Assembly (NCBI GenBank): GCA_022821985.1 | Contig: JAJECP010000033.1 | Span: 1 to 64,000 of the forward strand | Source: Acidimicrobiia bacterium | Lineage (GTDB): Bacteria > Actinomycetota > Acidimicrobiia > Acidimicrobiales > Poriferisodalaceae | Direction of reading: 5' to 3' | Length of the DNA: 64,000 nt | Shown: piece after piece, positions 15,128 to 56,214 of the stretch | How positions within the stretch are numbered: position 1 is the stretch's first letter | Layout of the letters: every line of letters starts with the position of its first letter | Notes under the pieces: model-generated | Databases searched by the model: none | Seen by the model: the letters and a program-made list of their open reading frames with translations, nothing else | What the model was told of the DNA's origin: nothing | Made by a program: the position numbers and the translations under genes

Positions 15128-15270
15128 AGAGGCTGAGCACCGGGCCTCAGCGGCCCGTGAGCCCAATCACATGAGCATGGGAACAAGAGCGGAAAGTGCA
15201 GTGCGAAGCCGTGGCCCGAGCGGCCCGTGAGCCCAATCGCATGAGTATGGGGAACAAGAGCGGGAAGCAA
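15128..15270 (+). repeat. dispersed intergenic repeat, tandem double copy (A1, A2)
   Basis: This holds two partial units of the repeat family head to tail. A1 (15128-15200) begins AGAGGCTGAGC and contains AGCGGCCCGTGAGCCCAATC and GGGAACAAGAGCGG. A2 (15203-15270) begins at GCGAAGCCGTGGCCCGAG and runs to GGGGAACAAGAGCGGGAAGC. It fills most of the 270-base gap between divergent genes at 15116 and 15387. The remaining bases (15271-15386) show no recognisable feature. Confidence 0.85.
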
Positions 15271-15386
15271 TCGGTGACGCAGCGGGAGGCGACGGTGAAG
15301 TGATGCTGAGTAGCCTCACAGCGTTCTCCGAGTCCCGGCCGAGATGCCAGCTACACGGAATCTTCTAGCCCCGAAAGCCAGACACC

Positions 15387-16367
15387 GTGCGCAATCACAC
15401 TCCCCCGCAAACGCACGTGGCCGATGCCGAGACATTCCGGCAGACGTTCGAGCGCATCACTGCGAACGTGGAGCGGGTCATTCGAGGCAAGCCCGACGCG
15501 GTTGGGCTCTCGCTGCTGTGCTTGCTGTGCGATGGACACCTGCTGATCGAAGACGTGCCGGGGGTCGGCAAGACCAGCCTCGCCAAATCGCTCGCAGCCT
15601 CGATTGACGCACCGTTCGGCCGTATCCAATTCACCCCGGACGTGCTGCCATCGGACGTCATCGGCGTCAATGTCTGGGATGAGCGCGAGCGCACATTCGA
15701 GTTCCGTCCCGGAGCGCTCTTCTCCAGCATCGTGCTGGTCGACGAGATCAACCGGGCGTCGCCAAAGACGCAGGCGGCACTGCTCGAAGCAATGCAGGAA
15801 CGCCAGGTCACGACCGACCGCACGACACGGCCGCTCGGTCAGCCGTTCATGGTGATCGCCACACAGAATCCGATCGAGCACGAGGGCACCTACCCGTTGC
15901 CCGAGTCTCAGCTCGACCGGTTCCTGATGCGCGTGAGCATCGGCTACCCGGATGCGGATTCTGCCGTCGAGGTGCTCGATCTCCACGACGGCACCACGGA
16001 GATCACGCTTGAGCCGGTCGCCACTGCCAGCGAGGTGTTGGCGATGACCCGTACCGTCACCGAAGTCCACGTTGCTCCGGTGCTGCGCCGCTACATCGTC
16101 GCCGTCGCCGATGCTTCTCGACAGCGCGGCACGATCACGCTGGGCATCAGCCCGCGAGCCACGCTCGACCTGCAGCGAGTGGCACAAGCGCGCGCACTCG
16201 CCGCCGGCCGCAACTACGTGGTGCCCGACGATGTGAAGGCCGTCGCTGAACCAGTGCTCGGTCACAGGATCCGCTTGAGCGCCGATGCGCAACTGCAGGG
16301 CTTGACCGCCCAGACAGCCCTGCGCGACGTCTTCGACGCTGTCGCTGTCCCCACCGCCGCCGGCTAA
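15387..16367 (+). CDS. MoxR-family AAA+ ATPase
   Basis: MoxR proteins are chaperone-like AAA+ ATPases thought to help assemble or activate partner protein complexes. The Walker A loop VPGVGKTS (residues 57-64), Walker B IVLVDEINRA (115-124), ATQNPIEHEGTYPLPESQLDRF sensor region (quoted in part) and a C-terminal lid are present. The length is 326 residues. The start is a GTG at 15387 without a strong Shine-Dalgarno. It is followed by DUF58 and transglutaminase genes, the classic MoxR/DUF58/TGase gene set. The stop TAA lies in a fragment of the dispersed repeat. Confidence 0.92.
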   Translation: MRNHTPPQTHVADAETFRQTFERITANVERVIRGKPDAVGLSLLCLLCDGHLLIEDVPGVGKTSLAKSLAASIDAPFGRIQFTPDVLPSDVIGVNVWDERERTFEFRPGALFSSIVLVDEINRASPKTQAALLEAMQERQVTTDRTTRPLGQPFMVIATQNPIEHEGTYPLPESQLDRFLMRVSIGYPDADSAVEVLDLHDGTTEITLEPVATASEVLAMTRTVTEVHVAPVLRRYIVAVADASRQRGTITLGISPRATLDLQRVAQARALAAGRNYVVPDDVKAVAEPVLGHRIRLSADAQLQGLTAQTALRDVFDAVAVPTAAG

Positions 16368-16383
16368 GAGGCTGAGCCGAATG
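16362..16383 (+). repeat. truncated repeat remnant carrying the moxR stop and DUF58 start
   Basis: GGCTAAGAGGCTGAGCCGAATG matches the 5' end of the dispersed repeat over about 18 bases. Its TAA is the moxR stop and its final ATG is the DUF58 start codon. Confidence 0.65.
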
Positions 16384-17574
16384 CTGACGCGGCGGGGCTG
16401 GTCCGTCGGGATCGGCGCAGCAGTCGCAGCCGGAGCCGGTCGGCTGTTCGGCATGGGCGAGCTCTTGGTGCTCGCATTGGCGGGGATCGCACTGATCTCG
16501 GGGTCGGTGGTGTGGACCCGGACGCGCCGGATCCGCCTCAGGATCCAGCGTTCGGTCCAGCCTGCGCGCGTCCATGCCGGTGGCAAGGCACGAGTGCAGC
16601 TCGTCCTCACCAACTTGGGCGGCCACGCCCCCGTGCTCCAGCTCACCGATCCGGTGACCGGCACGCTCGGCGCACGCTTGGGGGTCGGCCCGCTGCTCGC
16701 CGCCGAGCGTCTGAGCACGTCGTACCTGCTGCCGACTCAACGCCGGGGCCGTTTGGAAATCGGACCAGCGGAGGTCGATGTCGTCGATCCGCTCGGCTTG
16801 GCCCGCACCTCCATTGGCGAAGGCCCGCGGACGATGCTGGTCGTCTATCCGGCAACGCAGACGCTGGTGCCGCCTCGCCTGGCTCGCGGGCCTGAGCCGT
16901 TGGGCCTTGCTGCGGACGTTCACACCTTGCAGCGCATCGGCGAGGATTTCTACGCCCTGCGCGACTACACCGCCGGCGACGATGTCCGCCGCATCCATTG
17001 GCCCTCGACAGCGCGTCTCGGCCGTCCCATGGTGCGCGAAGACGAAGTGCCCCGTCGGAGCCGGGTCACGGTGGTGCTTGACACTCGCAGCACCGCTTTT
17101 GACGCTGATCCGCTCGCCGACGGGCACTTCGAGCTGGCTGTATCTGCTGCCGCGAGCGTCGTGCTCGCCAGCGCCACCCGGCATGACCCGCTGCGACTGA
17201 TGACGGTGGCGGGCGCAGACACCGGCTTCGTGACCTCGGGGGAAGGCTTGGCGCAGCTGTTCGATCATCTCGCCGACGTCTCCACATCGGCGCAGGGATC
17301 GCTGCGCAGCACGCTTGCGGCAGCCGCGGCGACGGCCGTCGGCGCAGTGGTCGTGGTGCTTGGGGGCACCGCATTCGATGCGGCGCGAGATGCAGAAGCA
17401 ATCTCGGCGGCGGGGTCGCGCACTTCGTCCATGACCGTCATCCGGGTGTGCAGACCCGGTGATCCCCTGCCGGCGGGCGGCCCGGGAGTTGTCGACATCA
17501 GCACGCTCGCCGAGCTGGGACCCAAGTGGGCCGCTGCGCAGACGTCGTCCCAGGCGAACGCGGTACGCACATGA
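16381..17574 (+). CDS. DUF58 domain protein
   Basis: This is a protein of 397 residues with two N-terminal hydrophobic segments (about 8-45), then a beta-rich region. The DUF58 signature YALRDYTAGDDVRRIHWPST is followed by a von Willebrand A-like fold. VVLDTRSTAFDADP partly matches the MIDAS-type metal site. DUF58 proteins are usual partners of MoxR ATPases. It overlaps the transglutaminase gene by ATGA. The biochemical role is not established; by context it is a membrane-anchored component of the MoxR/TGase system. Confidence 0.88.
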   Translation: MLTRRGWSVGIGAAVAAGAGRLFGMGELLVLALAGIALISGSVVWTRTRRIRLRIQRSVQPARVHAGGKARVQLVLTNLGGHAPVLQLTDPVTGTLGARLGVGPLLAAERLSTSYLLPTQRRGRLEIGPAEVDVVDPLGLARTSIGEGPRTMLVVYPATQTLVPPRLARGPEPLGLAADVHTLQRIGEDFYALRDYTAGDDVRRIHWPSTARLGRPMVREDEVPRRSRVTVVLDTRSTAFDADPLADGHFELAVSAAASVVLASATRHDPLRLMTVAGADTGFVTSGEGLAQLFDHLADVSTSAQGSLRSTLAAAAATAVGAVVVVLGGTAFDAARDAEAISAAGSRTSSMTVIRVCRPGDPLPAGGPGVVDISTLAELGPKWAAAQTSSQANAVRT

Positions 17575-19835
17575 GAGGGCGCAGCCTGTGGCAGGTGGAG
17601 GTCTCGCTCTGGTTGCTCACGCTGCTCTCGGTTCTCACCGCGCGCCGCCTGTTCGACGCTTGGGATTACGCGCCGCTGTGGCTCATCATGGCGTTGGGCG
17701 GCCACGCCTCGGCTGCGGTCACACGTCGGCAGCGCTGGCCCCTTGCGGCAGCTGCGACGGCATCAGCGGTGATGCTGATCATCGTCGAGGGACTGGCCCT
17801 GTACTCCGACACGCTCTGGCTGCGCTTGCTGCCCACCGCCGAGACGCTGCGGCAAGCGGCAGCCGACGTGGCCGCTGCCTGGGACGCCTTCGGCATCGTA
17901 GAAGCGCCGACGCCGGCCACCGCAGGCTTCCTGCTGGTCGGCGGTGCCGTCATCTGGCTCGCGGCCTTTGCCGCCGATGCACTGGCACTGCGTGCGCGCT
18001 CGGTAGGCCAAGGGTTGCTTCCCGCCTTCTGCGTGCTCGCCTTCGTGGGGGCATTGGGCACCGATGCATGGCGAGTCCGCAGTGCCGCCGCGATGGTCGT
18101 CGGTGCGGCAGCGTTCGTGGCCGCACACGGCATCCAGCACACCGGGGACCGGACATCGGTGGGCGCGTCCGAACGGCGGCGTGCAACCGTGCCCATGCGC
18201 ACGGCACTGCGCTTGGGCATCCCCGCCGCGCTCGTTGCTGCGCTGCTGGTGCCCTTGCTGCCAGGCAGCGACGCTCCGGCGATCGTCTCCTGGAAGGACC
18301 TCGATGGCAGCGCCCCTGCGTCGAGGGTGACGATCAGCCCTCTGGTCAATGCCCAAGGCCGCCTGGTGGGCACCTCGGGTGCCGAGTTGTTCCGGGTTGA
18401 GGCAGATGCGCCTGCGTACTGGCGGGTTTCGGGCCTCAGCCGTTTCGACGGGACCTTCTGGGGATCCGAGCAGCTCTACGGGGATGCGTCCCGGCACTTG
18501 GACGGGCGAACCAGCGACGAGTTGCTCACTCAGCAGTTCACGATTGGGGCGCTCGACAGCATCTGGCTGCCGGCCGCATACGAACCGGTCGCCTACGACG
18601 GCCCCGAGGCACTGTACGACCCGGAGACGGGCACCCTGGTCACCGAGCACAGCAGCGAGTTGGAATCGGGCATGACCTACACGGTCAGCTCGAGCGTCGA
18701 CGTTCCCTCGATCGCAGGGCTCGTGGCCGCCAGCGGAGACGTGCCCGCGGACATCGCCGAGAAGTACTTGGCCTTGCCAGACGGCTTCAACCGGCGCGTG
18801 AGTGGCCTCGCTGCAGACATCACAGCCGACGCTTCCGGCCCGTACGCGAAGGCCCTGGCGCTGCAGAACTTCTTTCTCGAGAACTTCGTCTACGCCTTGA
18901 GAGTGCCCAGCGGGCACGACACCGAACGCATGGAACAGTTCCTGTTCGAAGAACGGCGCGGCTATTGCGAGCAATTCGCTGGTACCTATGCCGCGATGGC
19001 CCGGGCCATCGGCTTGCCGTCGCGCGTCGCGGTCGGTTTCACGCCCGGCGAACTGATCGACGGCGTCTACGTGGTCAGGGGCGAGCACTATCACGCGTGG
19101 CCCGAGGTCTGGATTGCAGGACGCTGGGTGTACTTCGAGCCAACCCCGGGGCGGGGTGCCCCCGGAGCTGTCGTCTATACCGGTGTGGCGCCCCAGCAAG
19201 TGGTGCCAGGCGATCCTGAGGCGGCCGGCGAAGCGGGCTCAGGGTTCATCGGCGAAGTGGGCCTCGAAGATCTGGAAGGCCTGTCAGGCGATCTCGAAGG
19301 CTTCGTTGACGTCCTCGACTTCGAGGGCTCCCAGGCGCCGACAGGAAGCTGGTCGGAGTGGCTCGTCGTTCCGTTCTATGCGGTGCTGGCAGTCGGAATC
19401 GGCTGGCTCATCATCGTGCCGTCGGCCGTGCGAGTTCGCCGGGCGCTGCACCATCGCCGCTCCCGTCACGATGCACGCGCCGCAATCGGTGCCGCATGGG
19501 ATGACGTTGCTGAGACGCTCTTCAACCTCGGCATCGACCGGCGTGCGGTCGAGACGCACGCCGAATTCGCCGATCGCGTCGATCGCCGGCTGCGCATCGA
19601 TTCGGGCGAGCTGAGCTCGTTGGCGACTGCCGCTCAGGAGGCGGCGTACGCAGCTGAGCCCCCGCCTCCGCAGACGGTTGCCGAGGCCAGGCTGGACGCA
19701 CAGCATCTCGAAGCGCGCATCCGATCTGCACGCAGCCGCTGGGATCGCATCGGGACTGCATGCCGACCTTCCGCGCTGACAGCAGGGCCCCGTTCGCGCC
19801 GCCGGCACCGAGCAGCCGTCAACGGCAGGGTTTAG
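17571..19835 (+). CDS. membrane transglutaminase-like protein (DUF3488 + transglutaminase + DUF4129)
   Basis: This is a large membrane protein of 754 residues. The N-terminal region has about seven hydrophobic segments, the DUF3488-type part. An extracytoplasmic transglutaminase-like core carries Cys 466 (RRGYCEQFAG), His 508 (HYHAWPEVW) and an acidic third position Glu 523 in YFEPTPG. One further membrane helix near residues 600-625 precedes a DUF4129-like C-terminal tail. I chose the ATG at 17571, which overlaps the DUF58 stop. The stop TAG overlaps the convergent DUF3040 stop. It probably acts on cell-surface proteins with the MoxR/DUF58 pair. Confidence 0.88.
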   Translation: MRGRSLWQVEVSLWLLTLLSVLTARRLFDAWDYAPLWLIMALGGHASAAVTRRQRWPLAAAATASAVMLIIVEGLALYSDTLWLRLLPTAETLRQAAADVAAAWDAFGIVEAPTPATAGFLLVGGAVIWLAAFAADALALRARSVGQGLLPAFCVLAFVGALGTDAWRVRSAAAMVVGAAAFVAAHGIQHTGDRTSVGASERRRATVPMRTALRLGIPAALVAALLVPLLPGSDAPAIVSWKDLDGSAPASRVTISPLVNAQGRLVGTSGAELFRVEADAPAYWRVSGLSRFDGTFWGSEQLYGDASRHLDGRTSDELLTQQFTIGALDSIWLPAAYEPVAYDGPEALYDPETGTLVTEHSSELESGMTYTVSSSVDVPSIAGLVAASGDVPADIAEKYLALPDGFNRRVSGLAADITADASGPYAKALALQNFFLENFVYALRVPSGHDTERMEQFLFEERRGYCEQFAGTYAAMARAIGLPSRVAVGFTPGELIDGVYVVRGEHYHAWPEVWIAGRWVYFEPTPGRGAPGAVVYTGVAPQQVVPGDPEAAGEAGSGFIGEVGLEDLEGLSGDLEGFVDVLDFEGSQAPTGSWSEWLVVPFYAVLAVGIGWLIIVPSAVRVRRALHHRRSRHDARAAIGAAWDDVAETLFNLGIDRRAVETHAEFADRVDRRLRIDSGELSSLATAAQEAAYAAEPPPPQTVAEARLDAQHLEARIRSARSRWDRIGTACRPSALTAGPRSRRRHRAAVNGRV

Positions 19836-20209
19836 CTGGGGTCGTTGCGGAAGCGGCGCCGCATGCGGTCGCCGAAAGAATCCGGACTGCTCGGTCGCGA
19901 TCGCTTGGCGATCGAATCCGAGACTTTCTCGAGCCCCAGCCTGCCCATCTTGCGCACGTTGCGCTCGATCACCACTGCGCTGGCAAACACCACCAGGAAG
20001 GCGACGAACGACAGCGCGAAGTGCACCTGCAGACCCAAGCCGATGCCGACCAGCCCCAAGATGCCTCCGAGCACTGCCCAGCGGATGTTGCGCAGCGCGT
20101 GGCGAGTCAGCGTGGTTTCCGACACCTCCCGCGCGAACTCGGGATCGGTGTCGTAGAAGTCCTTCTCGATCTCGAGCAGGATGCGTTGTTCGTCTTCCGA
20201 AAGCGGCAC
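19832..20209 (-). CDS. DUF3040 domain membrane protein
   Basis: This is a small actinobacterial membrane protein of 125 residues. The N-terminal PLSEDEQRILLEIEKDFYDTDP is the DUF3040 hallmark. Two adjacent membrane helices (about residues 45-85) and a basic C-terminal tail follow. I chose the GTG at 20209 because GGAG lies seven bases upstream and the protein then starts at the family's usual position. The function is unknown; in other actinobacteria such genes often lie near dinB or the mraZ cluster. Its stop codon overlaps the transglutaminase stop. Confidence 0.85.
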   Translation of the reverse strand: MPLSEDEQRILLEIEKDFYDTDPEFAREVSETTLTRHALRNIRWAVLGGILGLVGIGLGLQVHFALSFVAFLVVFASAVVIERNVRKMGRLGLEKVSDSIAKRSRPSSPDSFGDRMRRRFRNDPS

Positions 20210-20297
20210 GCACAGGCTCCAAATGCTGTATTGCCGATGTTGCTGCCAGTGTAGGACCGCGCTTGGCCCTACTTCCACGCACCCCCAGGGAAGGTGT

Positions 20298-22165: not shown

Positions 22166-22184
22166 TGGCGCAGTCTGCCACGCA

Positions 22185-22269
22185 GGAGGCTGAGCCCAAT
22201 GGCGAAGCCGTGGCCCGAGCGGCCCGTGAGCCCGTATCGAATGGAGACAGGGAACATGAGCGGGAAGGA
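22185..22269 (+). repeat. dispersed intergenic repeat, full copy (B)
   Basis: This is a full copy, from GGAGGCTGAGCCCAATGGCG through GCCGTGGCCCGAGCGGCCC and GTGAGCCCGTATCGAATGG to GGGAACATGAGCGGGAAG. It begins 20 bases upstream of the Nudix start on the other strand and ends 38 bases before the next plus-strand gene. It differs from copy C at only a few positions. Confidence 0.9.
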
Positions 22270-22306
22270 CAGGCGATTGACGACGCACCCGACGCCTGGC
22301 CGTACC

Positions 22307-22627
22307 ATGGCGCAGGTGAGCATGCACGACGACGGCGACGGCATTGGGCTCACTGCGGCGCCTACCGCGCTGCCGTCGGTGCTGGCCAGGGCCTTGGCCT
22401 TCGGTGCGATTGTCGTTGCGGCTGTCTGCGGCGGCCTCGCGGGCTATGCGACGAGTGCTCTGCAGTGCAGCGGGGGATGCGTCGGCCCGGCGCTGGGCGG
22501 AACGGCGATCGGCGCCCTCGCCGCCGCTGCTGGGGTGGCTGCGCTCGCGGCCCTCGTGCTGCGCTCCATGAGCGAGTGGGCCGACCAAGCCTCGGTACAG
22601 CTCCGCAAGAAAGGAGCACGGCGTTGA
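22307..22627 (+). CDS. small membrane protein preceding a response regulator
   Basis: This protein of 106 residues has two predicted membrane helices (about 27-50 and 60-85), separated by a short loop containing a Cys pair (LQCSGGCVGP), and a charged C-terminus. I recognise no family. The ATG at 22307 is chosen; a second ATG at 22322 is an alternative. Its stop overlaps the response regulator start as TTGA, so the two are translationally coupled. That coupling is the best evidence that it is a real gene and hints at a role in the same signalling unit. Confidence 0.6.
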   Translation: MAQVSMHDDGDGIGLTAAPTALPSVLARALAFGAIVVAAVCGGLAGYATSALQCSGGCVGPALGGTAIGALAAAAGVAALAALVLRSMSEWADQASVQLRKKGARR

Positions 22628-23304
22628 CCACCAACGTCCTCGCAGTCGAAGACGACGAACGGATCCGCACAGCGCTGCGCCTCGCACTGGAGGACGAAGG
22701 CTGGCAGGTCAGCGAGGCCGAGTCGTGCGAGGAGGCCCTCGAGCGATTCACACCCGAGAGCACCGATGTCGTGCTCGTCGACATCATGCTGCCCGGTCTC
22801 GACGGGTTCGAGCTGTGCCGCTCCATCAGGCGGATCAGCCATGTGCCGATCATCATGGTGACCGCTCGCGACGACACCCACGATGTCGTTGCAGGACTCG
22901 AGGCCGGAGCCGACGACTACCTCACCAAGCCCTTCGCCCCGAAGGAGTTGTCGGCGCGCATCAGGGCCCTGCTGCGGCGCAGCCGGACCGTGGACGGCAG
23001 TGGTCTGCCACGAACCGTCGGCGACCTCGATATCTACCCCGACGAGGGCGTCGTGACGAAGAGCGGCGACGAGTTGCACCTGACCAAGACGGAGTTCCGG
23101 CTGCTCTGCGAACTGTCCGACAATCCCGGCAAGGTGATGAGTCGCGAGCAGCTGCTCGAACGAGTCTGGGGCTACGACTACTTCGGCGACGGTCGGCTGG
23201 TGGATGTGCATGTCCGCCGGCTGCGCCTCAAGATCGAGGACGATCCAGCCAGCCCGCGCTACGTCGCAACAGCTCGCGGCCTGGGTTACAAGCTCAGAGG
23301 CTGA
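22624..23304 (+). CDS. OmpR/PhoB-family response regulator (MtrA-like)
   Basis: This DNA-binding response regulator of 226 residues has a receiver domain with the acidic pocket (Asp 10/11), phosphoacceptor Asp 53 (LVDIMLPGLDGFE), Thr 80 and Lys 102 (TKPF). A winged-helix domain (about 130-224) contains LLERVWGYDYFGDGRLVDVH and VRRLRLKIE. The start is a TTG at 22624 with AAAGGAG seven bases upstream, overlapping the previous stop. The TGA stop lies inside repeat copy C. With the downstream kinase and lipoprotein it matches the MtrA-MtrB-LpqB arrangement; the orthology is inferred. Confidence 0.9.
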   Translation: MTTNVLAVEDDERIRTALRLALEDEGWQVSEAESCEEALERFTPESTDVVLVDIMLPGLDGFELCRSIRRISHVPIIMVTARDDTHDVVAGLEAGADDYLTKPFAPKELSARIRALLRRSRTVDGSGLPRTVGDLDIYPDEGVVTKSGDELHLTKTEFRLLCELSDNPGKVMSREQLLERVWGYDYFGDGRLVDVHVRRLRLKIEDDPASPRYVATARGLGYKLRG

Positions 23305-23382
23305 GCCGAATGGCGAAGCCGTGGCCCGAGCGGCCCGTGAGCCCGTATCGAATGAAGACGGGGAACAAGAGCGGGAAGCAAT
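23295..23382 (+). repeat. dispersed intergenic repeat, full copy (C)
   Basis: This full copy starts CAGAGGCTGAGCCGAATGGC and ends GGGGAACAAGAGCGGGAAGC. Its first TGA is the stop codon of the response regulator gene. It fills most of the 129-base gap to the histidine kinase, and its 3' end abuts a mini-ORF start. Confidence 0.9.
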
Positions 23383-23437
23383 GGCCGCCACGACGGAAGA
23401 CCTGCCAATCCGCGTGCCCCGTGAGGACGTGACATGA
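23381..23437 (+). CDS. possible 18-codon leader ORF ahead of the histidine kinase
   Basis: An ATG directly after repeat copy C opens MAATTEDLPIRVPREDVT, whose stop overlaps the kinase start as ATGA. GCGGGAAG from the end of the repeat could act as a weak ribosome site. It may serve translational coupling only. The frame is short and could be chance. Confidence 0.35.
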   Translation: MAATTEDLPIRVPREDVT

Positions 23438-24849
23438 GGCTGCGCTGGCCGCGGCCCCTGCGCCGGTTGCCGCTTCGCGCTCGCGTCGTCGGTGCGTTCA
23501 CTCTGGGAGCGTTGCTGGCGGCGTTCCTGCTCGTGGTGATGACCTACAGCCTCTCCCGAGGCTCAATGCTGGGTCTGCGCCAAGACTCCTCTGAGGCTCA
23601 GTTCTTCGCAAACGCCACCCAGGTGCAGGGCTCGCTGCGCGCAGAGAGTCCTGACTTCGCGGTGCTGCTCGAATCGCTCCCGAGCCTCAGCGGCAGCCGT
23701 TCCATTGTCCGAACCGGGCCCGACATCTGGCGGTCGCCGTCCCTCGTGCCCAGCGACCTTCCTGATGAGCTCGTGGAGGCAGTCGAGCGATCCGATCAGG
23801 CCCACGCGATGCGGTACCGGCTCGACGGTGTCCCCCAGCTCGCGTTGGGTTTGCGGCTGCGCCCGGCTGCGGTATCGCAGCTCAGCGAGACGCTCTACTT
23901 CGAGGTCGTCCCCCTCTCCGAGATCGAGGCCACGCTTGCCAGCTTGCGCCTGATTCTGGGTGTCGGAGCGGCCCTGACGGTGCTGATCGGTGTTGCCGTC
24001 GGGGCCTGGGCCGGCGGGCGACTGCTGCGGCCGCTCGCAACCGTGTCCGACGCTGCGAACTCGATCGCGCACGGTCGATTCGACACGCGAGTTGAACGCA
24101 GCGACGATCCTGACCTCGCCGTGATCGTCGAGTCGTTCAACGACATGGCCGACGCCATGGAGCGCCGCATTGCACGCGACGCGAGATTCGCGTCCGATGT
24201 GAGCCATGAGCTGCGATCGCCGCTGCAGACCCTGCGAAGTTCGATCGACTATCTGAACGGCCACCGCGATGAGCTGTCCGCTCAAGGAGCAACGGCACTG
24301 GACCTGCTCGCAGCCGAAGTCGACAGATTCCAGCAGCTCGTGCAGGACCTCTTGGAGATCTCCCGACCCGACGCCGACGGATCGGTCTTCGAGCGCGGTC
24401 TCGTCAACATCACAGAGCTGGTCCAGCATCGCGTCGGCACACTCGGGCCCGATGTAGAGATGAACATCAGCGCTGCTGCCACGGATGCTGTGGTGATCGG
24501 CGACAAGCGAGGGCTCGCACAGGTCTTTGACAACCTGCTCCGCAATGCCGAAAAGCACGGAGGCGGTGTCACCCGGGTGGGGATTTCACGGCCCGGCAAC
24601 CTGGTGCGTGTCGCCGTCGAGGACGACGGGCCGGGCGTCACGCCCTCCGAGCGTGATCTGGTTTTTGAGCGCTTTACACGCGGCACCGCGGCGCGCAAGC
24701 GAGGCGCGGGCACTGGTGCCGGTCTCGGTCTGGCCCTGGTGTACGAGCACACCCGGCGTCACGGCGGCTCAGTGCGTGTCGAGTCACGACCTGACGGCGA
24801 GCGCGGCGCCCGCTTCGTGGTCGAGCTTCCCATTGCGGGGCACCGGTGA
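23434..24849 (+). CDS. sensor histidine kinase (MtrB-like)
   Basis: This membrane sensor kinase of 471 residues has TM1 at about 19-39, an extracytoplasmic sensing region (40-170), TM2 at about 171-194 and a HAMP linker (195-245). The HisKA H-box DVSHELRSPLQTL contains the phospho-accepting His 258. An N-box with Asn 371, DDGPGV (397-402) and GTGAGLGLAL form the ATP-binding domain. It follows its response regulator and precedes a GerMN lipoprotein with a GTGA overlap, as in mtrAB-lpqB. The partner and the cell-wall or division role are inferred from that order. Confidence 0.9.
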   Translation: MRLRWPRPLRRLPLRARVVGAFTLGALLAAFLLVVMTYSLSRGSMLGLRQDSSEAQFFANATQVQGSLRAESPDFAVLLESLPSLSGSRSIVRTGPDIWRSPSLVPSDLPDELVEAVERSDQAHAMRYRLDGVPQLALGLRLRPAAVSQLSETLYFEVVPLSEIEATLASLRLILGVGAALTVLIGVAVGAWAGGRLLRPLATVSDAANSIAHGRFDTRVERSDDPDLAVIVESFNDMADAMERRIARDARFASDVSHELRSPLQTLRSSIDYLNGHRDELSAQGATALDLLAAEVDRFQQLVQDLLEISRPDADGSVFERGLVNITELVQHRVGTLGPDVEMNISAAATDAVVIGDKRGLAQVFDNLLRNAEKHGGGVTRVGISRPGNLVRVAVEDDGPGVTPSERDLVFERFTRGTAARKRGAGTGAGLGLALVYEHTRRHGGSVRVESRPDGERGARFVVELPIAGHR

Positions 24850-30062: not shown

Positions 30063-30121
30063 AATGGGCGACCCTACTTCGGGCCACTGGAAAGCGAAGT
30101 CATCATGACGCGGGAGGCGCC

Positions 30122-31627: not shown

Positions 31628-31630
31628 CCC

Positions 31631-32815: not shown

Positions 32816-32840
32816 GGCGCTGGCAGCGACCCTCGGGGCC

Positions 32841-35732: not shown

Positions 35733-35784
35733 TGTCCAAGTGTGCCGTCGCCGATTGGCGCGACGTTCCATTGCGTCACGTCTT

Positions 35785-35868
35785 GCTTCCAGCTCTTGTT
35801 CTCCATGCTCATGCCATTGGGCTCACGGGCCGCTCGGGCCCCGGCTTCGCCATTCGGCTCAGCCTCTG
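35785..35868 (-). repeat. dispersed intergenic repeat, full inverted copy (D)
   Basis: Read on the minus strand this copy starts CAGAGGCTGAGCCGAATGGC, continues GAAGCCGGGGCCCGAGCGGC and ends GAGAACAAGAGCTGGAAGC. It sits between divergent queG and the kinase gene. A TATGCT hexamer lies about ten bases beyond its end on the kinase side and could be a -10 element. Otherwise 35733-35912 shows nothing recognisable. Confidence 0.88.
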
Positions 35869-35912
35869 CGTCGTTTTATGCTGGAAGCGGCGCTCGAGCC
35901 GCGGCCGGTGCA

Positions 35913-39051: not shown

Positions 39052-39078
39052 CCGGGCAATCCGCCAATTCGCCTGTTG

Positions 39079-39149
39079 CCTCCCGCTCTTGTTCCCCATT
39101 CTGATGCGATTGGGCTCACGGGCCGCTCGGGCCACGGCTTCGCCTCTGA
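39079..39149 (-). repeat. dispersed intergenic repeat, inverted copy (E) with 12-base deletion
   Basis: Read on the minus strand it runs CAGAGGCGAAGCCGTGGCCC, GAGCGGCCCGTGAGCCCAAT, then GGGGAACAAGAGCGGGAGG. A segment of about 12 bases (TGAGCCGAATGG in other copies) is missing near its start. It ends 17 bases before rnpB, covering where the rnpB -35 region would lie. Confidence 0.85.
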
Positions 39150-39166
39150 GTAGCATTCGAGCCTGC

Positions 39167-39554
<388 letters not shown>

Positions 39555-39567
39555 GCCCCTGCCCAGC

Positions 39568-40164: not shown

Positions 40165-40215
40165 GGCCGCCCGTGCCGCACGACGATCAGCATCGGCGTC
40201 CGTGGCTCATGTGGG

Positions 40216-40740: not shown

Positions 40741-40782
40741 CAGCCCGGCCCCCTGCGCCAGTGCACCGGCGGATCCAAGAGT

Positions 40783-43870: not shown

Positions 43871-43948
43871 GGTACCGGGCAGAGCCGTGTGCCTATGTGC
43901 GCCCCGCTATGACATCTGCGCCTTGCAGCTTGGGGTCACACTGGTGTT

Positions 43949-45851: not shown

Positions 45852-45869
45852 CGCCCACCGTCACACTGC

Positions 45870-45913
45870 TCGGCCTAGCGGCCACTCTTTCATTTGTCGG
45901 CCTAGCGGCCGAC
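45870..45913 (+). terminator. paired hairpins between convergent genes
   Basis: A 14-mer TCGGCCTAGCGGCC occurs twice, at 45870-45883 and 45897-45910. The second lies in a perfect 7-bp hairpin GTCGGCC-TAGC-GGCCGAC (45896-45913), and the first is followed by ACTCTTTCATTT, moderately T-rich. This fits a terminator for the plus-strand thiamine operon. The second hairpin includes the NagZ stop codon. Confidence 0.5.
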
Positions 45914-49671: not shown

Positions 49672-49691
49672 CGGTACCGGCCGGTCGCCGG

Positions 49692-50201
49692 CTAGCGGCT
49701 GCCTACGGTGCGGCGCGAGTCCACGACGCCTGTGTCGAACCCGGCAAGGTGCAGGCCGCCGTGGAATCGGGCGTGCTCGATCTTGAGGCAGCGGTCCATC
49801 ACCACGTCGAGGCCTGCGTCGTTGGCCAGCTTGGCGGCTTCGGGGCTCCACAGTCCGAGCTGCACCCAGAATGCCTGCGTCCCGATGTCGATGGCCTCGG
49901 CTGCCACACCGGGCAGGTCGGCCGGTCGCCGGAACACATCCACGAGATCGGGCACCACCGGCAGATCGGCGAGGCTCGGATAGCACGGCTGGCCGAGGAT
50001 CTCGTCGACCACAGGGTTCACGAAGTACACATCGAAGTCGGTGCTCGAGCTGAGCAGGTACGTCGCTACGAAGTTCGACGGCCGCGCCGGATTGGCCGAG
50101 ACACCTACCATCGCCACTGTCTCGGTTCGCCTGATGAGGTCCAAGCGCTCGGCGGCACTGGGTTCCGTCCAGCCGTCGACCGGTTCATGGGTGATGGTCA
50201 T
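49692..50201 (-). CDS. CoA-binding domain protein (YccU type)
   Basis: This protein of 169 residues has a Rossmann-like CoA-binding domain: VAMVGVSANPARPSNFVATY near the N-terminus, VYFVNPVVDEILGQPCYPSL in the middle, and VMDRCLKIEHAR near the C-terminus, the typical end of the YccU/CoA_binding_2 family. The cellular role is unknown. Its start overlaps the metY stop (ATGA), so it is translated after metY; a link to sulfur amino-acid metabolism is only suggested by that coupling. Confidence 0.85.
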   Translation of the reverse strand: MTITHEPVDGWTEPSAAERLDLIRRTETVAMVGVSANPARPSNFVATYLLSSSTDFDVYFVNPVVDEILGQPCYPSLADLPVVPDLVDVFRRPADLPGVAAEAIDIGTQAFWVQLGLWSPEAAKLANDAGLDVVMDRCLKIEHARFHGGLHLAGFDTGVVDSRRTVGSR

Positions 50202-51487
50202 GCGGGCACCGCCTTCGCGAGGGCTTGGTCGAGGTCCCAGAGAATGTCGTCGAGGTCTTCAAGGCCGACCGACAGCCGGATCATGTCGGCACCCACGCCG
50301 CCGGCTGCAAGCGCTTCGTCCGACAGCTGCTGGTGGGTGGTCGACGCTGGGTGGATGACCAGCGTGCGTGCATCGCCGACGTTCGCCAGGTGGCTGATCA
50401 TCTGCAGTGCCTCGATGAAATCCGAACCTGCCTGACGGCCGCCCTTCACGCCGAAGGTGAAGATGGCACCAGGCCCTTGAGGCATGTACCGGCGGGCAAG
50501 ATCCCGGTAAGGCGAAGATTCGAGACCGGCGTAGCTGATCCAGCTCACCCCGCGATGGGCCTCGAGGTGCTCCGCGACCGCCTGCGCATTCGCCACATGC
50601 TCATCCATGCGCTGGGGCAGCGTCTCGAGCCCCTGCAGCAGCAGGAACGCGTTCATCGGCGACATGGCGGCACCAATGTCACGCAGCTGCTCCACCCGAA
50701 GCTTGGTGCAAAAGGCGTACTCGCCGAAGTTCTCCCAGAATCGGAGGTCGTTGTAGCTGGCCACGGGTTCGGTCATGTTCGGAAAGCGCCCGCTGCCCCA
50801 GTCGAAGCGGCCCGACTCGCTCACCACGCCGCCAATGGAGTTGCCGTGCCCGCCGATGAACTTGGTGGCCGAGTGGATCACGATGTCGGCCCCGTGCTCC
50901 ATCGGTCGGCACAGGTACGGCGACGCGAAGGTGGCGTCGACCACCAACGGCAGCCCGTGCGCGTGCGCCACCTCGGCAATGCCGGCCAGGTCGGGAATGG
51001 AGCCCGAGGGGTTGCCGACGATTTCGGTGTAACAGAACTTCGTGCGCTCGTCGATGGCGGCCGCGTATGCGTCCACGCTGTCGCCGTCGACGAATCGGGC
51101 CTCGACGCCGAAGCGGCCCAAGGTCACGTCGAACATGGTGTGGGTGCCGCCGTACAGCGCAGTCGAGGTAACCAGGTTGTCGCCAGCGCTGCAGAGCGCG
51201 GCTGCAGTGAGGAATTCCGCTGCCATGCCCGAAGCTGCCGCGACGGCGCCGATGGCCCCTTCGAGGCTTGCCATCCGCTCCTCGAAGGCGTTGACGGTGG
51301 GGTTCGAGATGCGGGTGTAGATGGTGCCGTACTTCTGCAATGCGAACAGGTCGGCCGCATCTGCTGTGTCCTCGAACACGAAGCTCGTGGATTGATAGAC
51401 CGGGACTGCGCGGGCCCCGGTTGTCGGGTCGGGCCGACCGCCTGCGTGCAGCGCGCGAGTGCGGAACCCGAACTGGTGATCGCTCAT
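50198..51487 (-). CDS. metY: O-acetylhomoserine sulfhydrylase (Cys/Met metabolism PLP enzyme)
   Basis: MetY makes homocysteine from O-acetylhomoserine and sulfide. This gamma-family PLP enzyme of 429 residues starts TRALHAGGRPDPTTGARAVP, with YTRISNPT, SGMAAEFLTAAALCSAGDN and the Schiff-base Lys 209 in HSATKFIGGHG. The length and the GNSIGG context fit OAH/OAS sulfhydrylases rather than the shorter cystathionine enzymes. It starts at an ATG at 51487. It forms an operon with the CoA-binding gene downstream. No SAM riboswitch was seen in the 67 bases upstream. Confidence 0.9.
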   Translation of the reverse strand: MSDHQFGFRTRALHAGGRPDPTTGARAVPVYQSTSFVFEDTADAADLFALQKYGTIYTRISNPTVNAFEERMASLEGAIGAVAAASGMAAEFLTAAALCSAGDNLVTSTALYGGTHTMFDVTLGRFGVEARFVDGDSVDAYAAAIDERTKFCYTEIVGNPSGSIPDLAGIAEVAHAHGLPLVVDATFASPYLCRPMEHGADIVIHSATKFIGGHGNSIGGVVSESGRFDWGSGRFPNMTEPVASYNDLRFWENFGEYAFCTKLRVEQLRDIGAAMSPMNAFLLLQGLETLPQRMDEHVANAQAVAEHLEAHRGVSWISYAGLESSPYRDLARRYMPQGPGAIFTFGVKGGRQAGSDFIEALQMISHLANVGDARTLVIHPASTTHQQLSDEALAAGGVGADMIRLSVGLEDLDDILWDLDQALAKAVPA

Positions 51488-51554
51488 CTACTGCAGCCTA
51501 CGACGGGCGCCCTGCGGGCCAAGGTCGGCCGCTGCAGAAACTGCGGGATGCCTC

Positions 51555-51809
51555 TTAGCCAGCCCGGCTCTCGACGTACCGCCGAGCACGTTCGAGGGCC
51601 TCCGCCGGGTCCACACCGGCGACTCCGGCCATCCAGCAGGCGATGGGGGCTGCGATCCGCTCGGAGTCGTGTGCAGCGGCGCCGGCCAGGTTCAGCAGCG
51701 CGTCGGTGACAACCGCATCAGGCGCAGGTGCGCCGATCACTGCGGCAAAGCCCGCCAGCCACTCCTGCGCCGTCGTGCCCGGCGGTCCGGAACCCGTCTC
51801 GTCGCTCAT
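51555..51809 (-). CDS. DUF6457 family small protein
   Basis: This small helical protein of about 84 residues matches by eye the DUF6457 pattern: WLAGFAAVIGAPAPD, LLNLAGAAAHDSERIAAPIACW and a C-terminal AEALERARRYVE. Such proteins are often encoded near molybdopterin-cofactor genes; a molybdoenzyme gene is 1 kb away but not in the same operon. I chose the ATG at 51809; a GTG two codons earlier is possible. Its stop lies in GGCTAAGAGGC, shared with moxR and ftsQ. Confidence 0.7.
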   Translation of the reverse strand: MSDETGSGPPGTTAQEWLAGFAAVIGAPAPDAVVTDALLNLAGAAAHDSERIAAPIACWMAGVAGVDPAEALERARRYVESRAG

Positions 51810-51925
51810 CGCCACAGCGTACGTTTGGCCGGTCGCGTTAGTGCGGGCAATGCATACTCGTCCACCTCCAGCGGATCGCTACGGTGCGGACCCGGCAGGT
51901 GGCACCCGCAGCCGAAAGGACACCG

Positions 51926-52615
51926 ATGAGCGACGACGAAGGCATTTTCGGACCTGAGCTGTTCGAGTTTCTCGAAGAACTCGAAGCGAACAACGACCGG
52001 GAGTGGTTCAACGAGAACCGTGAGCGCTACGAGGAGGAAGTGCGCGAGCCTGCGTTCGACTTCATCCGTGCCATGGGCGCATTGCTGGGCGAGATTTCGC
52101 CGCACATGACCGCACGGGACACGAAGGTCGGGGGCTCGCTGATGCGCGTCTTCCGCGACACGCGCTTCTCCGCCGACAAGACGCCATACAAGACCAACGT
52201 GGGCATCCAGTTTCGCCATGTGCGAGGCGGCGATGTGCATGCGCCCGGCTACTACGTGCATCTGGACACCGAGAACTGCTTCTTTGGGGCCGGCAGCTGG
52301 ATGCCGGATCGGGACGCGCTGGCGGCCTACCGGATCGCCATCGACGAGCGAACTGATGCGTGGATCGCGGCCCGCGACACCTGCCAGTCCGACGGCTGGC
52401 GCATGGAAGGCGAACGGCTCAAGCGCTCACCCCGAGATTGGTCCGCCGATCACCCGATGATCGAGGATCTCAAGCGCAAGAGCTTCATCGCCGTGCGCGA
52501 CTTCGACCACGACGTGGCCCTCAAGCCGGAGTTCCCGTCAGTGATCACAGCATGGTGCAACGAGAGTCGACCGCTGATGGCATTTCTCTGCGGGGCCGTG
52601 GGGCTGGATTTCTGA
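51926..52615 (+). CDS. DUF2461 (TIGR02453) family protein
   Basis: This protein of 229 residues matches the DUF2461 family: LEELEANNDREWFNENRERY, TKVGGSLMRVFRDTRFSADK plus TPYKTN, and GYYVHLDTENCFFGAGSW. The function of the family is not known. The ATG at 51926 follows GAAAGGA with good spacing. It is divergent from the DUF6457 gene and convergent with the molybdoenzyme gene; a repeat remnant lies between it and that gene's stop. Confidence 0.88.
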   Translation: MSDDEGIFGPELFEFLEELEANNDREWFNENRERYEEEVREPAFDFIRAMGALLGEISPHMTARDTKVGGSLMRVFRDTRFSADKTPYKTNVGIQFRHVRGGDVHAPGYYVHLDTENCFFGAGSWMPDRDALAAYRIAIDERTDAWIAARDTCQSDGWRMEGERLKRSPRDWSADHPMIEDLKRKSFIAVRDFDHDVALKPEFPSVITAWCNESRPLMAFLCGAVGLDF

Positions 52616-52618
52616 GCC

Positions 52619-52652
52619 GGCCTCGGCGTCGCCATTCCGCTCAGTCTCTGAG
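52619..52652 (-). repeat. repeat remnant (G) at the molybdoenzyme stop codon
   Basis: On the minus strand CTCAGAGACTGAGCGGAATG followed by GCGACGCCGAGGCC matches the first 34 bases of copy C with about four differences. Its TGA is the stop of the BisC-like gene, just as copy C ends the response regulator gene. Confidence 0.7.
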
Positions 52653-55025
52653 CGGGACGATTTCCGGCGGCAGATACGACTCCACCGAGGGCGGTTCGCC
52701 GTCGTACCGTTCAACCTCGACGAGACACGTGTGTGCCGACGGTCCTTGCGCCAGTCGGCTGGTCCCGACGTCGGCGGTCAGCGTGTTGGGGTTGCCGGCA
52801 CGGCAGGTGCCGTCAGGTGCAGGGTCGTACCAGGCCCCGGTTGACAGCTGAATTGCTTCGGGCATAATGGCATCGTCGACAACAGCGCCTGCCAGGCATG
52901 CGCCACGATCGTTGTAGAGCCGTACGACGTCACCGTCAGCGATGCCGCGGGCCGTGGCAGTGACCGGGTGCATGCGCGCCGGCTCGCGGCCCGCCACCTT
53001 CGTCGCCTGGCTGGGAGCGGCATGGTCGTACTGGCTGTGCAGTCGCGACCGAGGCTGGTTCGACACCAAGTGCAATGGCCAACGATCGCTTCGCGCGCCG
53101 CCCAGCCGTTCGAACGGCTCCATCCAGGCCGGGTGCGGCGGGCAGTCGTCGTAGCCGTAGCCGGCGATCGCCTCGCTCCACAGCTCGATCCGCCCGCTCG
53201 GTGTGCGCAGCGGCTTGGTGGCCGGGTCGGCGCGGAACGCCTCGAGATAGACCTGCGTGGGTTCCCCCATCAGCGCCTTGCCAGGGGCCATCGCGTAGCC
53301 CTCGGCACGAAACTCCTCATAGGTCGGGGCCTGCGGATCGGCGGCACGGTGAATCTCGTAGATGACCTCGATCCACTCGTCGGCCGTACGTCCCTCGGTG
53401 TACTGTTCCCCGAACCCCAGGCGCTCGGCCAAGCGAGCGAAGATCCAGTAGTCGTCGCGGGAGTCCCCCACCGGTTCGGCCACCGCGGCCATGGCGATCA
53501 GCATCGTCTCGGCGCCGCCGATGTCGTTGCGTTCGAGCGGCGTCGTGGCCGGCAGCACGATGTCGGCCCGCCGGGCGACCGGTGACCAGAACGGCTCTTG
53601 CACCACGATCGTCTCGGGTCGCTGCCACGCCCGCATCATTCGGTTCAGGTCCTGGTGGTGATGGAAGGGGTTGCCGCCCGACCAGTACACGAGCCGGATA
53701 TCGGGAAAGCGGCCCCTGCGGCCGTCGAAGTCGTAGGGCTCAAGTGGCCGTTCCAGCATCTCGGTGATACGCGAGACGGCAATGGTGGGAGGGCCTGGCT
53801 GGCGCATCGGCACCGGCAGGCCCGGAATGCGCGCCCGCGTCTGCCCCGCACCGGTGTTGCCCTGGGTGCCGAAACTGAAGGCGTATCCCCCGCCGGGCAG
53901 GCCGACCTGGCCGAGCACGCACGCCAGGGCCAGCGCCATCCAGTACGGCTGCTCGCCGTGGTGGGCCCGCTGGGTGGACAGGGAGAGGTTGACGAGCGTG
54001 CGCTTGGCGGCCATCTCGTGCGCCAGTGAGACGATGTCATCGGCGTCGATGCCGGTCACCTCCGCCGCCCACGGTGCCGACTTGGGGGTGTCGTAGTCGA
54101 CAGCGCTGGCCCACGGCGCGGGACCGCGCCAGTCGCCACAGGCCGCGGCGAGACCCTCGCCCAATATGTGAGCGCGCAGCCGGTCCCAGCCGTGACAGTG
54201 GCTTGCCAGGAAATCCTCATCGGCGAGTCCGTCAGTGATGAGCGTGTGGATAATCCCCGCCATCAGCGCGACGTCGGTGCCAGGTCGTGTCGGGAGCCAG
54301 CGTGCATCGGCCGATTTGTCGAAGTCGTCACGCAGCGGTCCGACGTTGACGAACTGCACCCCTGCCCTGCTTGCACGGGCCACCCAGTCGTTGTGATGGT
54401 GCGGACCCTGACCGCCGTAGGTCACGTGGCTGTTGCTGGCACGCATGCCGCCGAAGCAGACGAACAGCTCGGTGTGCTCACAGATCACCGACCACGAGGT
54501 CTGCCGTGCCAGACCGGCGTGATAGCCCGTACCGACCATGTAGGGGAAGATCGCCTCGGCAGCGGCCGATGAGTACGTGCCCTTCTGGTCGGTACAGCCG
54601 CCGAAGAAGCGCATGAAGCGGTGCTGCTGGCTCGACGCCAGACCGAATCGCCCTGCCGAACCCCACCCGTAGGAACCGCCGAAGATCGATGCATTGCCGT
54701 GGTCGTCGCGCACCCGCGTCAACTCGGCGGCCACCAGGTCGAGTGCTGTGTCCCAATCGACCTCGACGAACGGATCCTCGCCGCGCAGGTGAGTGGCCGC
54801 ACCGGGCCCGCCTGCCAGCCACGACTGCCGCACGGCAGGCCGCATCACCCGGTTCTCCGCGAAGTGGCGCAGCGACTCCCCCAAGTGGGAGGGCTCGGGG
54901 TCAGTGGGATGGCCGCGCACCGCCACCACTTCGCCGTCGCGCGAGTCGACCAGGAACGACCCGAAGTGTGTGCCCATGGCCGTCGTGCGCACGTCGGGCG
55001 CCGTTGCGCCGCCCTGCCTGCTCAT
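52641..55025 (-). CDS. BisC/TorA-type molybdopterin oxidoreductase, cytoplasmic
   Basis: This DMSO-reductase-family enzyme with a bis-MGD cofactor has 794 residues. GSYGWGSAGRF, FFGGCTDQKGTYSSAAAEAI (Ser 152/153 as likely Mo ligand), SLSTQRAHHGEQPYWM, YWSGGNPFHHHQDLN and the C-terminal dinucleotide-binding part (HPVTATARGIADGDVVRLYN) are visible. There is no N-terminal Fe-S Cys motif and no twin-Arg signal, so it resembles cytosolic biotin or methionine sulfoxide reductases. The ATG at 55025 overlaps the LLM gene stop (ATGA). The substrate is not determinable. Confidence 0.88.
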   Translation of the reverse strand: MSRQGGATAPDVRTTAMGTHFGSFLVDSRDGEVVAVRGHPTDPEPSHLGESLRHFAENRVMRPAVRQSWLAGGPGAATHLRGEDPFVEVDWDTALDLVAAELTRVRDDHGNASIFGGSYGWGSAGRFGLASSQQHRFMRFFGGCTDQKGTYSSAAAEAIFPYMVGTGYHAGLARQTSWSVICEHTELFVCFGGMRASNSHVTYGGQGPHHHNDWVARASRAGVQFVNVGPLRDDFDKSADARWLPTRPGTDVALMAGIIHTLITDGLADEDFLASHCHGWDRLRAHILGEGLAAACGDWRGPAPWASAVDYDTPKSAPWAAEVTGIDADDIVSLAHEMAAKRTLVNLSLSTQRAHHGEQPYWMALALACVLGQVGLPGGGYAFSFGTQGNTGAGQTRARIPGLPVPMRQPGPPTIAVSRITEMLERPLEPYDFDGRRGRFPDIRLVYWSGGNPFHHHQDLNRMMRAWQRPETIVVQEPFWSPVARRADIVLPATTPLERNDIGGAETMLIAMAAVAEPVGDSRDDYWIFARLAERLGFGEQYTEGRTADEWIEVIYEIHRAADPQAPTYEEFRAEGYAMAPGKALMGEPTQVYLEAFRADPATKPLRTPSGRIELWSEAIAGYGYDDCPPHPAWMEPFERLGGARSDRWPLHLVSNQPRSRLHSQYDHAAPSQATKVAGREPARMHPVTATARGIADGDVVRLYNDRGACLAGAVVDDAIMPEAIQLSTGAWYDPAPDGTCRAGNPNTLTADVGTSRLAQGPSAHTCLVEVERYDGEPPSVESYLPPEIVPLRD

Positions 55026-56122
55026 GGGACGGAGACCGAGACGTCCGAGATGGCGGGCTCTGCCATTTCGTCCCGCACCGCTGCGTCGACTGCCCGCCGC
55101 TGCCATGCCTGCATCGTCAGTTCGAGGCTCTCGATGCGCTCGGGCAGACCGAAGGTGGTGGTGTGCACCATCAGCTCGGCTGCACCGGTCTCGGCAGCGA
55201 GTTGCTCCAACCCGGCAACCGCCTCGTCGGGATCGCCGACCACGGAGTTGCCGGGCATGGCGGCTGCGCGCTCCCATTCGGGATGAGCCTGAGCCTCCTC
55301 GGGCGAGTACAGCGGCCAGAAGCGGCCGGTGCGGATGCCCCAGCGTCGCAGCCGTCCCGGTGCCGACAGATAGCGGGCACGCTCCGCGTCTTCAGCCACC
55401 ACCGTCGCCACGCTCACGATGACGTACGGCTCATCGAGCACGGCCGACGGTTCGAACCGCTGCCGGTACAGCTCGACGGCTTGGGCCGTTCCGCCGCCGC
55501 CGAAGTGGTTCGCAAAGGCGAACGGCAGCCCGAGATACCCAGCGAGCTGCGCCGAGTAGCCGCTCGAACCCAGCAACACCACCTGTGGCATGGTCTCAGC
55601 GGCCGGCGTGGCGGCGAAGTCGGACCACGGGCCGTCAGTAGTACGCGCATCGCCCAGATAGCCCATCAGGTCGATGAGATTGGACGGGAAGTCATCAACC
55701 TGCCACGGGTCAGCCACGGCCCCGTCCGCGGGCGAGCCGCCCGAGCGCACGGCGGCCGCGCTGAGCCTGTCACTGCCGGGCGCCCGGCCGATTCCGAGGT
55801 CGATGCGGCCCGGATGCAGTGCCTCGAGCATGGCGAACTGCTCAGCGATGACTGCTGGGCTGTGATTGGGCAGCATCACCCCGCCCGAACCGAGCTTGAT
55901 CTGGGCGGTCTGCGCGGCCAGGTGCGCAATCAGCACGGCCGGAGACGTGCTCGCCACCGTGTCCATGTTGTGATGCTCAGCGACCCAGAACCGCCGGTAC
56001 CCCAGCCGGTCTGCAGCCCGAGCCAGTTCAGCGGTCTCTGCCAGCGCCTGCGCACTGGTCGCCCCGTGCGACACCGTCGCCAGATCCAGCACACCCAACG
56101 GCAGGGGTTCCGCAGCACTCAC
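55022..56122 (-). CDS. LLM-class flavin-dependent oxidoreductase
   Basis: This luciferase-like monooxygenase-fold protein has 366 residues. VAEHHNMDTVASTSPAVLIA and RIDLGIGRAPGSD are typical of the YhbW-like group, which uses reduced FMN. It starts at a GTG at 56122, directly after repeat copy F on the opposite reading direction. It is translationally coupled to the molybdoenzyme gene (ATGA). Together with metY nearby, this hints at sulfoxide or organosulfur metabolism, which is only inference. Confidence 0.86.
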   Translation of the reverse strand: MSAAEPLPLGVLDLATVSHGATSAQALAETAELARAADRLGYRRFWVAEHHNMDTVASTSPAVLIAHLAAQTAQIKLGSGGVMLPNHSPAVIAEQFAMLEALHPGRIDLGIGRAPGSDRLSAAAVRSGGSPADGAVADPWQVDDFPSNLIDLMGYLGDARTTDGPWSDFAATPAAETMPQVVLLGSSGYSAQLAGYLGLPFAFANHFGGGGTAQAVELYRQRFEPSAVLDEPYVIVSVATVVAEDAERARYLSAPGRLRRWGIRTGRFWPLYSPEEAQAHPEWERAAAMPGNSVVGDPDEAVAGLEQLAAETGAAELMVHTTTFGLPERIESLELTMQAWQRRAVDAAVRDEMAEPAISDVSVSVP

Positions 56123-56130
56123 GGCGTCAG

Positions 56131-56214
56131 GCTAAGAGGCTGAGCCCCGGGCCCGAGCGGCCCGTGAGCGAAGCGAACAAGAGCGGGAAGCACAGGGCGA
56201 AGCCGTGGCCCGAG
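56131..56214 (+). repeat. dispersed intergenic repeat, rearranged copy (F)
   Basis: F1 (56131-56190) starts GCTAAGAGGCTGAGCCCCGG, carries GCCCGAGCGGCCCGTGAGC, lacks the middle segment, and ends GAACAAGAGCGGGAAG. F2 (56197-56214) is a second start, GGCGAAGCCGTGGCCCGAG, cut off just before the CoA-transferase stop. It fills the 95-base gap between two minus-strand genes. Confidence 0.85.

Follow-up and report, generated by a model that had tools for sequence, protein, structure and literature searches.

A short repeat of Acidimicrobiia, probably a type II miniature transposable element, with an invariant core beside covarying hairpins

Type II miniature inverted-repeat transposable elements (MITEs) of bacteria are 50-500 bp long, with terminal inverted repeats (TIRs), target duplications and no transposase of their own, and their similarity to an insertion sequence (IS) is confined to the terminal repeats (PMC10969869). 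The repeat family described here was noticed in the window, a stretch of 64,000 nucleotides (bases 1-64000 of contig C35) from an Acidimicrobiia bacterium whose assembly measures 3.31 Mb and is 89.9% complete. Like type II MITEs, it falls within 50-500 bp, has TIRs and target duplications, lacks its own transposase and is accompanied by an autonomous IS with similar ends. Unlike them, it has a 17-nt core that is better conserved than the remainder of the element and is found across the class, and it shows a strong preference for stop codons. The IS5-family IS (NF033580; domains DUF4096 and DDE_Tnp_1) resemble it in their ends and target preference, whereas the repeat is without a gene and the 17-mer is absent from the IS. 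Repetitive extragenic palindromic (REP) elements with their REP-associated tyrosine transposases (RAYTs) are likewise intergenic, hairpin-bearing and dispersed, but the repeat has no association with a Y1 transposase, has a target duplication and ends differently. Finally, the mycobacterial interspersed repetitive units (MIRU) of Mycobacterium tuberculosis are short repeats at gene junctions, including the two-component operon senX3-regX3. Our repeat is also short and sits at gene junctions, one of them in a putative two-component operon, although it has no conserved reading frame and shows IS-type ends and a target duplication.

We read the repeat as a type II MITE, non-autonomous and mobilised in trans by an IS5-family transposase that an IS of the same bacteria encodes. 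From sequence comparisons, we consider this probable, at about 0.8. What is new in this MITE is the targeting of stop codons and, above all, a class-wide folded core that lies outside Rfam 15 in the searches made. An earlier note on the window had called the family MITE-like, which agrees with the inverted terminal repeats, 5-bp duplications, empty sites and similar-ended autonomous IS found here. It had seen neither a transposase nor a flanking target duplication; an IS5-family transposase was found outside the window, in the IS with similar ends, and a 5-bp CYNAG duplication is detectable over many copies.

The whole genome was searched with profile R1, built on alignment A1 of 19 copies. 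There were 103 matches at E<=1 with 150 candidates scored; the best 96 of the 103 were retained and merged into 92 sites. Window copies scored between E 4e-10 and 5e-27, far above chance. These E-values and the genome-wide matches rule out chance similarity as the source of the family, which is neither unique nor at chance level. Furthermore, the search of related genomes found it in all 11 of those searched in the genus, with at least 47-61 matches each (56 candidates scored per genome).

Full-length copies are about 105-125 bp long, non-coding and without a conserved frame. They run from CYNAG through AGGCTGAGCC, nnnn, GGCGAAGCC, the invariant core GTGGCCCGAGCGGCCCG, an inner hairpin (H2) and the tail AAGAGCGGG to about 40 variable bases, and close with CCTATCCGCGCGGCCT and a second CYNAG. 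The element continues for 30-40 nt past the 3' end of the unit of about 85 bases first proposed. As an example, the plus-strand copy 23293..23420 has, read from the sequence, the left target 5-mer CTCAG at 23293..23297. Its left terminal repeat, doubling as hairpin H1 (GGCT-GA-GCC-GAAT-GGC-GA-AGCC), lies at 23298..23320, the core at 23321..23337, H2 in its long type I form at 23337..23366, and the conserved tail at 23367..23375. H2 occurs as GTGAGC-GNA-GCGAAC (type II), as GTGAGC-GNNA-GCGAAC or as a longer hairpin (type I), and some copies have two or three tandem core units. In L392 (G262) and L393 (G331), tandem core units form minisatellite-like arrays, with a unit of 88 nt in L392. One-base indels separate the subtypes, so that the copies share no reading frame. 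Two open frames are tempting in single copies; they are broken by these indels and were rejected.

The TIRs are imperfect and about 22 bp long, with the consensus AGGCYGMGCSGATAGGYGAASC from 53 copies chosen for at least 3 of 5 matches in the target duplication. In terms of the target, left-flank information is found mainly at positions -5 to -1 (104 copies with distinct flanks), where the frequencies are C 0.71, C/T 0.85, N, A 0.67 and G 0.98. Over 69 full-length copies, the left and right 5-mers match 210 times, against 186.6 when shuffled. None of 20,000 re-pairings was as high, and the signal is a sharp peak at one offset.

Syntenic stretches were compared in ten sister genomes in one set and in nine plus G000 in another. 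Orthologous sites occur in filled and empty versions between sister species (e.g. C35:65091 is empty in G004, G009 and G010), and some are filled in G007 only. G007 (contig-local 25258) and G008 (contig-local 41053) each have an insertion at one stop codon, and since the two are of different subtypes and point in opposite directions, we read them as independent. The family had been described as recent or maintained, and either description fits: the occupied sites vary from species to species, whereas conservation of the core extends well past the genus.

As for the source of mobility, a set of loci that included those of IS256-type (PF00872) and PF01609 transposases was scanned for paired MITE-like ends 600-5000 bp apart. 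The scan gave 15 pairs, two of them in PF01609 loci, L279 (G002) and L277 (G038), and both are IS elements with such ends. The IS of L279/L310 (G002), from the same genus as the window, is about 962 bp long and encodes an open transposase of 278 residues. This protein carries the Pfam domains DUF4096 and DDE_Tnp_1 and matches the IS5-family model NF033580 with 137.5 bits (curated cut-off 110); a second score for the partner element is 130.4 bits. The IS is flanked by GTAAG and CTAAG, identical at 4/5 positions, and other copies of it were seen as ends only (e.g. L314, L321). In the order-level relative G038, there are 8 IS copies, and the one read has CCTGG on both sides. A motif search in 30 loci detected 21 IS ends, every one of them at NTWAG, and many coincide exactly with the end of a contig. 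Relatives of the transposase are present in 10 of the 14 genomes examined. Its matches in G000 are mostly at contig ends (6/8, with 1 internal), and contig-end matches also occur in G001, G003, G008 and G009, as is expected when a multicopy IS breaks the assembly.

The IS right end, AGGCCGCGCGGATAGGCGACCA, was compared with the MITE ends. For 76 anchored and unselected right ends, the median is 13/22 identities and the maximum 19, with a shuffled mean of 6.6; the 104 left ends have a median of 14/22, and five right ends hand-picked as good reach 17-19/22. Inside the elements, the longest match between the IS and any of three MITE copies is 9 nt or less, and the 17-mer core is not in the partner IS. 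The resemblance in ends and target suggests that the IS transposase would mobilise the repeat.

IS256-type (PF00872) and other PF01609 transposases were considered as parents, and only the type of L279 and L277 fitted. An IS of G000 with ends ATGATTGG... was rejected as a parent, its ends being unrelated despite CTAG/CTGAG duplications. A DDE_Tnp_1 IS of this genome, at L271 (G000:C1:149910) and L280 (G000:C31:365692), has the ends ATGATTGGTTCCAAGG / ATGGTTAGTTCCAAGG and CTAG or CTGAG duplications. Its ends are unrelated to the MITE, and it likewise inserts at stop-codon-like sites.

Several observations weigh against a MITE moved by this IS. In single copies, the duplication is mostly imperfect or eroded, with an exact 4-mer in 8/69 copies and 2.9 expected by chance. 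The fixed offset of the duplication test was picked after a looser one, which allowed the flank to match anywhere on the right and gave weaker support (P 0.013; P 0.049 for at least 4 nt). A few bases are left at some “empty” sites, possibly as remnants of deletion, and with a median of 13/22 many right ends are only moderately like the IS end. The IS transposase was unmatched at E<=0.001 in G006, G007 and G010, which have 61, 60 and 47 MITE matches. Lastly, among 118 genomes of the order, the IS (15) and the repeat (10) co-occur in 3, which is not significant (Fisher P 0.12).

The position of the copies relative to genes was taken from a simple codon-usage caller. The family had been described as intergenic, which holds for 73 of the 92 merged sites, while 19 overlap a called gene. 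Of these 73, 39 lie 10 nt or less from a stop codon, where intergenic points of the window predict 13.5% (P 7e-16). Several copies provide a gene with its final codons or its stop codon, as the one at 23296 does. CTNAG holds TAA, TAG or TGA on one strand or the other, and the target is nearly palindromic. An insertion at a gene end could then restore the stop and be tolerated, and such a target would explain the position of copies at gene ends and between convergent genes. This would be a transposon strategy for a compact genome, with a stop codon in the target motif, so that insertion at a gene end can be silent.

The core is older than the genus. The exact 17-mer is present in 40 of 395 Acidimicrobiia genomes, from 27 of 184 genera. 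It occurs at least twice in 25 of them, with a maximum of 81 copies in one, and once in 15, some of which are chance; the reversed 17-mer, used as a control, has at most 1 match in any genome. Among 11 other genomes read by profile match, 9 keep it exactly, the exceptions being G012 and G025. The stems of H1 and H2 differ in G143, G043, G102 and G020, and in G070, G060 and G041 H2 is identical or almost identical. The tail GAGCGG is present in 21 of 27 inspected loci (one per genome, G000 and G070 included) and absent in 6. Outside the class, the pattern of core, H2 and tail was found in 0 of 358 genomes, a phylum sample of 396 less 38 of the class.

Conservation within the element was measured on orthologous copies. 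Of 76 pairs, 36 passed filters and 19 of these have the same architecture; a clean recount dropped 11 of the 19 for doubles, misalignments, independent insertions, inner-module differences or truncation. The eight clean pairs have 2/365 substitutions in the core, 3/176 in the left 22 bases and 30/360 in the right third, with 27/355 in the left and 46/502 in the right flank. Over all 19 pairs, the values are 7.4% for the core, 10.9% left, 22.1% right and about 20% in the flanks.

Rfam 15 at the gathering threshold found only RNase P in the window. At E<=1, eleven loci gave two tRNAs, one tmRNA over a tRNA and a sub-threshold AsrC, none of which covers the core. The AsrC match, in L030, has 27.2 bits against a gathering threshold of 111 and begins at the 3' edge of the copy. 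This copy (G000:C5) reaches to, or into, the start of a gene read as lepA. One repeat copy used as a query was unmatched in plasmids and phages. Viral contigs were rejected as carriers: in 14 stretches with the 17-mer, none shows H2 and the tail by eye, and they were taken as chance. The core sequence was not found in the text of the literature searched, a set that leaves papers outside it uncovered. In the distant copy L362 (G143:C82), the 3' part is a long hairpin followed by TTTTTT, resembling a terminator.

Both hairpins show covariation. For H2, with 15 sequences, 91.1% of cells are paired against 66.5% in shuffles, and the covariation score is 0.457 against 0.104 (0/500 as high); alignments slid out of register reach at most 0.106. 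For H1, with 10 sequences, the values are 85.4% against 76.4%, and 0.262 against 0.090 (0/500). Unpaired cells are mostly tandem G-A oppositions, and GA/GA oppositions speak for the top strand. As the covarying stems indicate, a folded strand is the working form of the core.

There are counts that tell against the fold as well. The covariation sequences were picked for equal arm length, and both they and the loop counts include related copies, which are not independent. For two of the five measures of covariation, the excess over shuffles is not clear: pairs with changes on both sides number 3 against 2.5 for H2 (293/500 shuffles as high) and 3 against 1.9 for H1 (58/500), and further pair types are equalled by 102/500 shuffles for H2 and 14/500 for H1. 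The folding energy of the core is not beyond shuffles (mean z -0.23 as RNA, +0.06 as DNA), which leaves covariation and loop class as the basis for the structure.

In terms of loop class, d(GNA) triloops closed by a C-G pair are known as stable DNA hairpins (PMC5815330). In H2, 116 of 147 loops are GNA and 27 are GNNA, and all four bases occur at N. The d(cGNNAg) and d(cGNABg) loops are further classes of stable DNA hairpin. Of the 124 H1 tetraloops, 108 are of the GNNA or GNAB type, for which random letters give about 10%, and 16 are not; another 15 copies have H1 loops of other lengths. Most H1 and H2 loops have a C-G closing pair, and most fall in these stable classes. Those described loops are model oligonucleotides, and the likeness is one of sequence. 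In H1, GNYA loops outnumber GNRA by 49 to 6, which leans to DNA.

Our best guess, offered tentatively and at slightly less than even odds, is that the core is folded single-stranded DNA acting in cis as a signal by which the element moves or is replicated. Should mobility depend on such a single-stranded core, the requirement would be surprising for elements moved by a DDE transposase. That the core works folded as RNA is also possible, though doubtful. As doubtful, if attractive, is a wider proposal: a new class of folded single-strand elements throughout Acidimicrobiia, with the invariant 17-nt core, two covarying hairpins with GNA/GNNA loops and the GAGCGG tail, which may ride foreign transposases by ending in their terminal repeats. 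The left end would then double as H1, and the core may be the selected replicating unit. The family also brings to light a class-wide structured sequence outside Rfam 15 in the searches made, and compensatory changes make its fold directly testable.

A more specific RNA function would make mobility secondary: copies at gene ends would be co-transcribed with the upstream gene and act in 3' processing, stability or attenuation. Covarying hairpins that flank an invariant sequence speak for it, and the copies are biased to the sense strand. Site contexts count 32 co-directional sense and 17 antisense (P 0.044 for this bias relative to the flanking genes), with 10 convergent and 14 divergent, and 40 distant loci, of which one genome contributes several, show a bias of 13 to 1. 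In addition, L383, L390 and L394 seem by eye to fill tight spacers between stop and start codons, with TGATG or ATGAGC on both sides; the gene caller, however, places a gene across each of them. Against this function, copies are often antisense or flanked by divergent genes, and their presence differs among sister species and among genera (27/184). No Rfam family covered the core in the searches made, and GNYA loops outnumber the GNRA type typical of RNA. We consider this function unlikely.

It is more improbable still that the core has no function and seems conserved only through conversion between copies within a genome. Exchange is frequent: 17 of the 36 ortholog pairs (the 17 not de-duplicated) differ in the inner module or in core number, which shows that copies exchange parts. 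L247 in one species and L263 in another, for example, have the same flanks and 3' part, with H2 of type II in one of them and type I in the other. However, the exact 17-mer occurs in genomes of many families with completely different hairpin stems, and conversion within one genome cannot keep a sequence constant across lineages.

A REP element moved by a Y1 (HUH) transposase, the kind of parent to which the earlier note had pointed, fits a short, intergenic, hairpin-bearing repeat with a strand-specific fold. It can hardly apply here, since 1 of 22 carriers and 0 of 14 genomes without the 17-mer have a match to Pfam Y1_Tnp (PF01797), most assemblies being incomplete, and the repeat has a 5-bp target duplication and IS5-like ends. 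A coding spacer of the MIRU kind, coupling the translation of adjacent genes, as the copy at 23296 between genes read as response regulator and kinase might suggest, is equally remote, given the one-base indels between subtypes that break a common frame, a stop codon in one frame of the left end and the many copies between convergent or divergent genes.

Returning to the window, the copies listed in the earlier note were recovered at 15128-15290 (two units), 22185-22278, 23296-23416, 35746-35867 (minus), 39052-39151 (minus) and 56135-56214, with a left-end remnant at 16368. The first, on the plus strand at 15125..15290 with CCTAG as its left edge, is a composite of two core units, the first without the right arm of H1. 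At the orthologous site, G008 has a single type II copy, and G004, G009 and G010 have a short AGAAGC... sequence. The remnant of a left end (16365..16384, plus strand) lies on the TAA stop codon of gene 15417-16367, and G008 holds a full copy there.

Profile matches and sister-species comparison place a type I copy on the plus strand at 22182..22278. At this site, the element is present in five sister species (G004, G007-G010) in a different or eroded version and missing from five others. The type I copy 23293..23420 lies over the stop codon of the response-regulator gene 22624-23304 and precedes gene 23467-24849, read as the histidine kinase of that regulator (both names come from reading the sequence). 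It is present in G000 and G008 and absent from 9 other species compared. A block of about 73-74 nt over the kinase start is duplicated, in up to three copies, in several sister species (L136, L137, L139-L144).

The same two comparisons give a type I copy on the minus strand at 35746..35869. Its site holds a short sequence in G004 and G010; in G008 and G009 the element is there in other forms, and G007 has a short sequence and a separate copy nearby. On the plus strand, a short copy with a truncated second unit lies at 56132..56214, with CTAAG as its left edge; the site is the same in G009, and the full element is absent in G003, G004 and G010. Finally, a type I copy without part of H1 is found on the minus strand at 39052..39155. 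Its site is short or a remnant in G004, G007 and G008, and the element is absent in G010. This copy lies 14-18 nt from, and just before, the bacterial class A RNase P RNA gene at 39169-39556 on the plus strand (RF00010, 210 bits).

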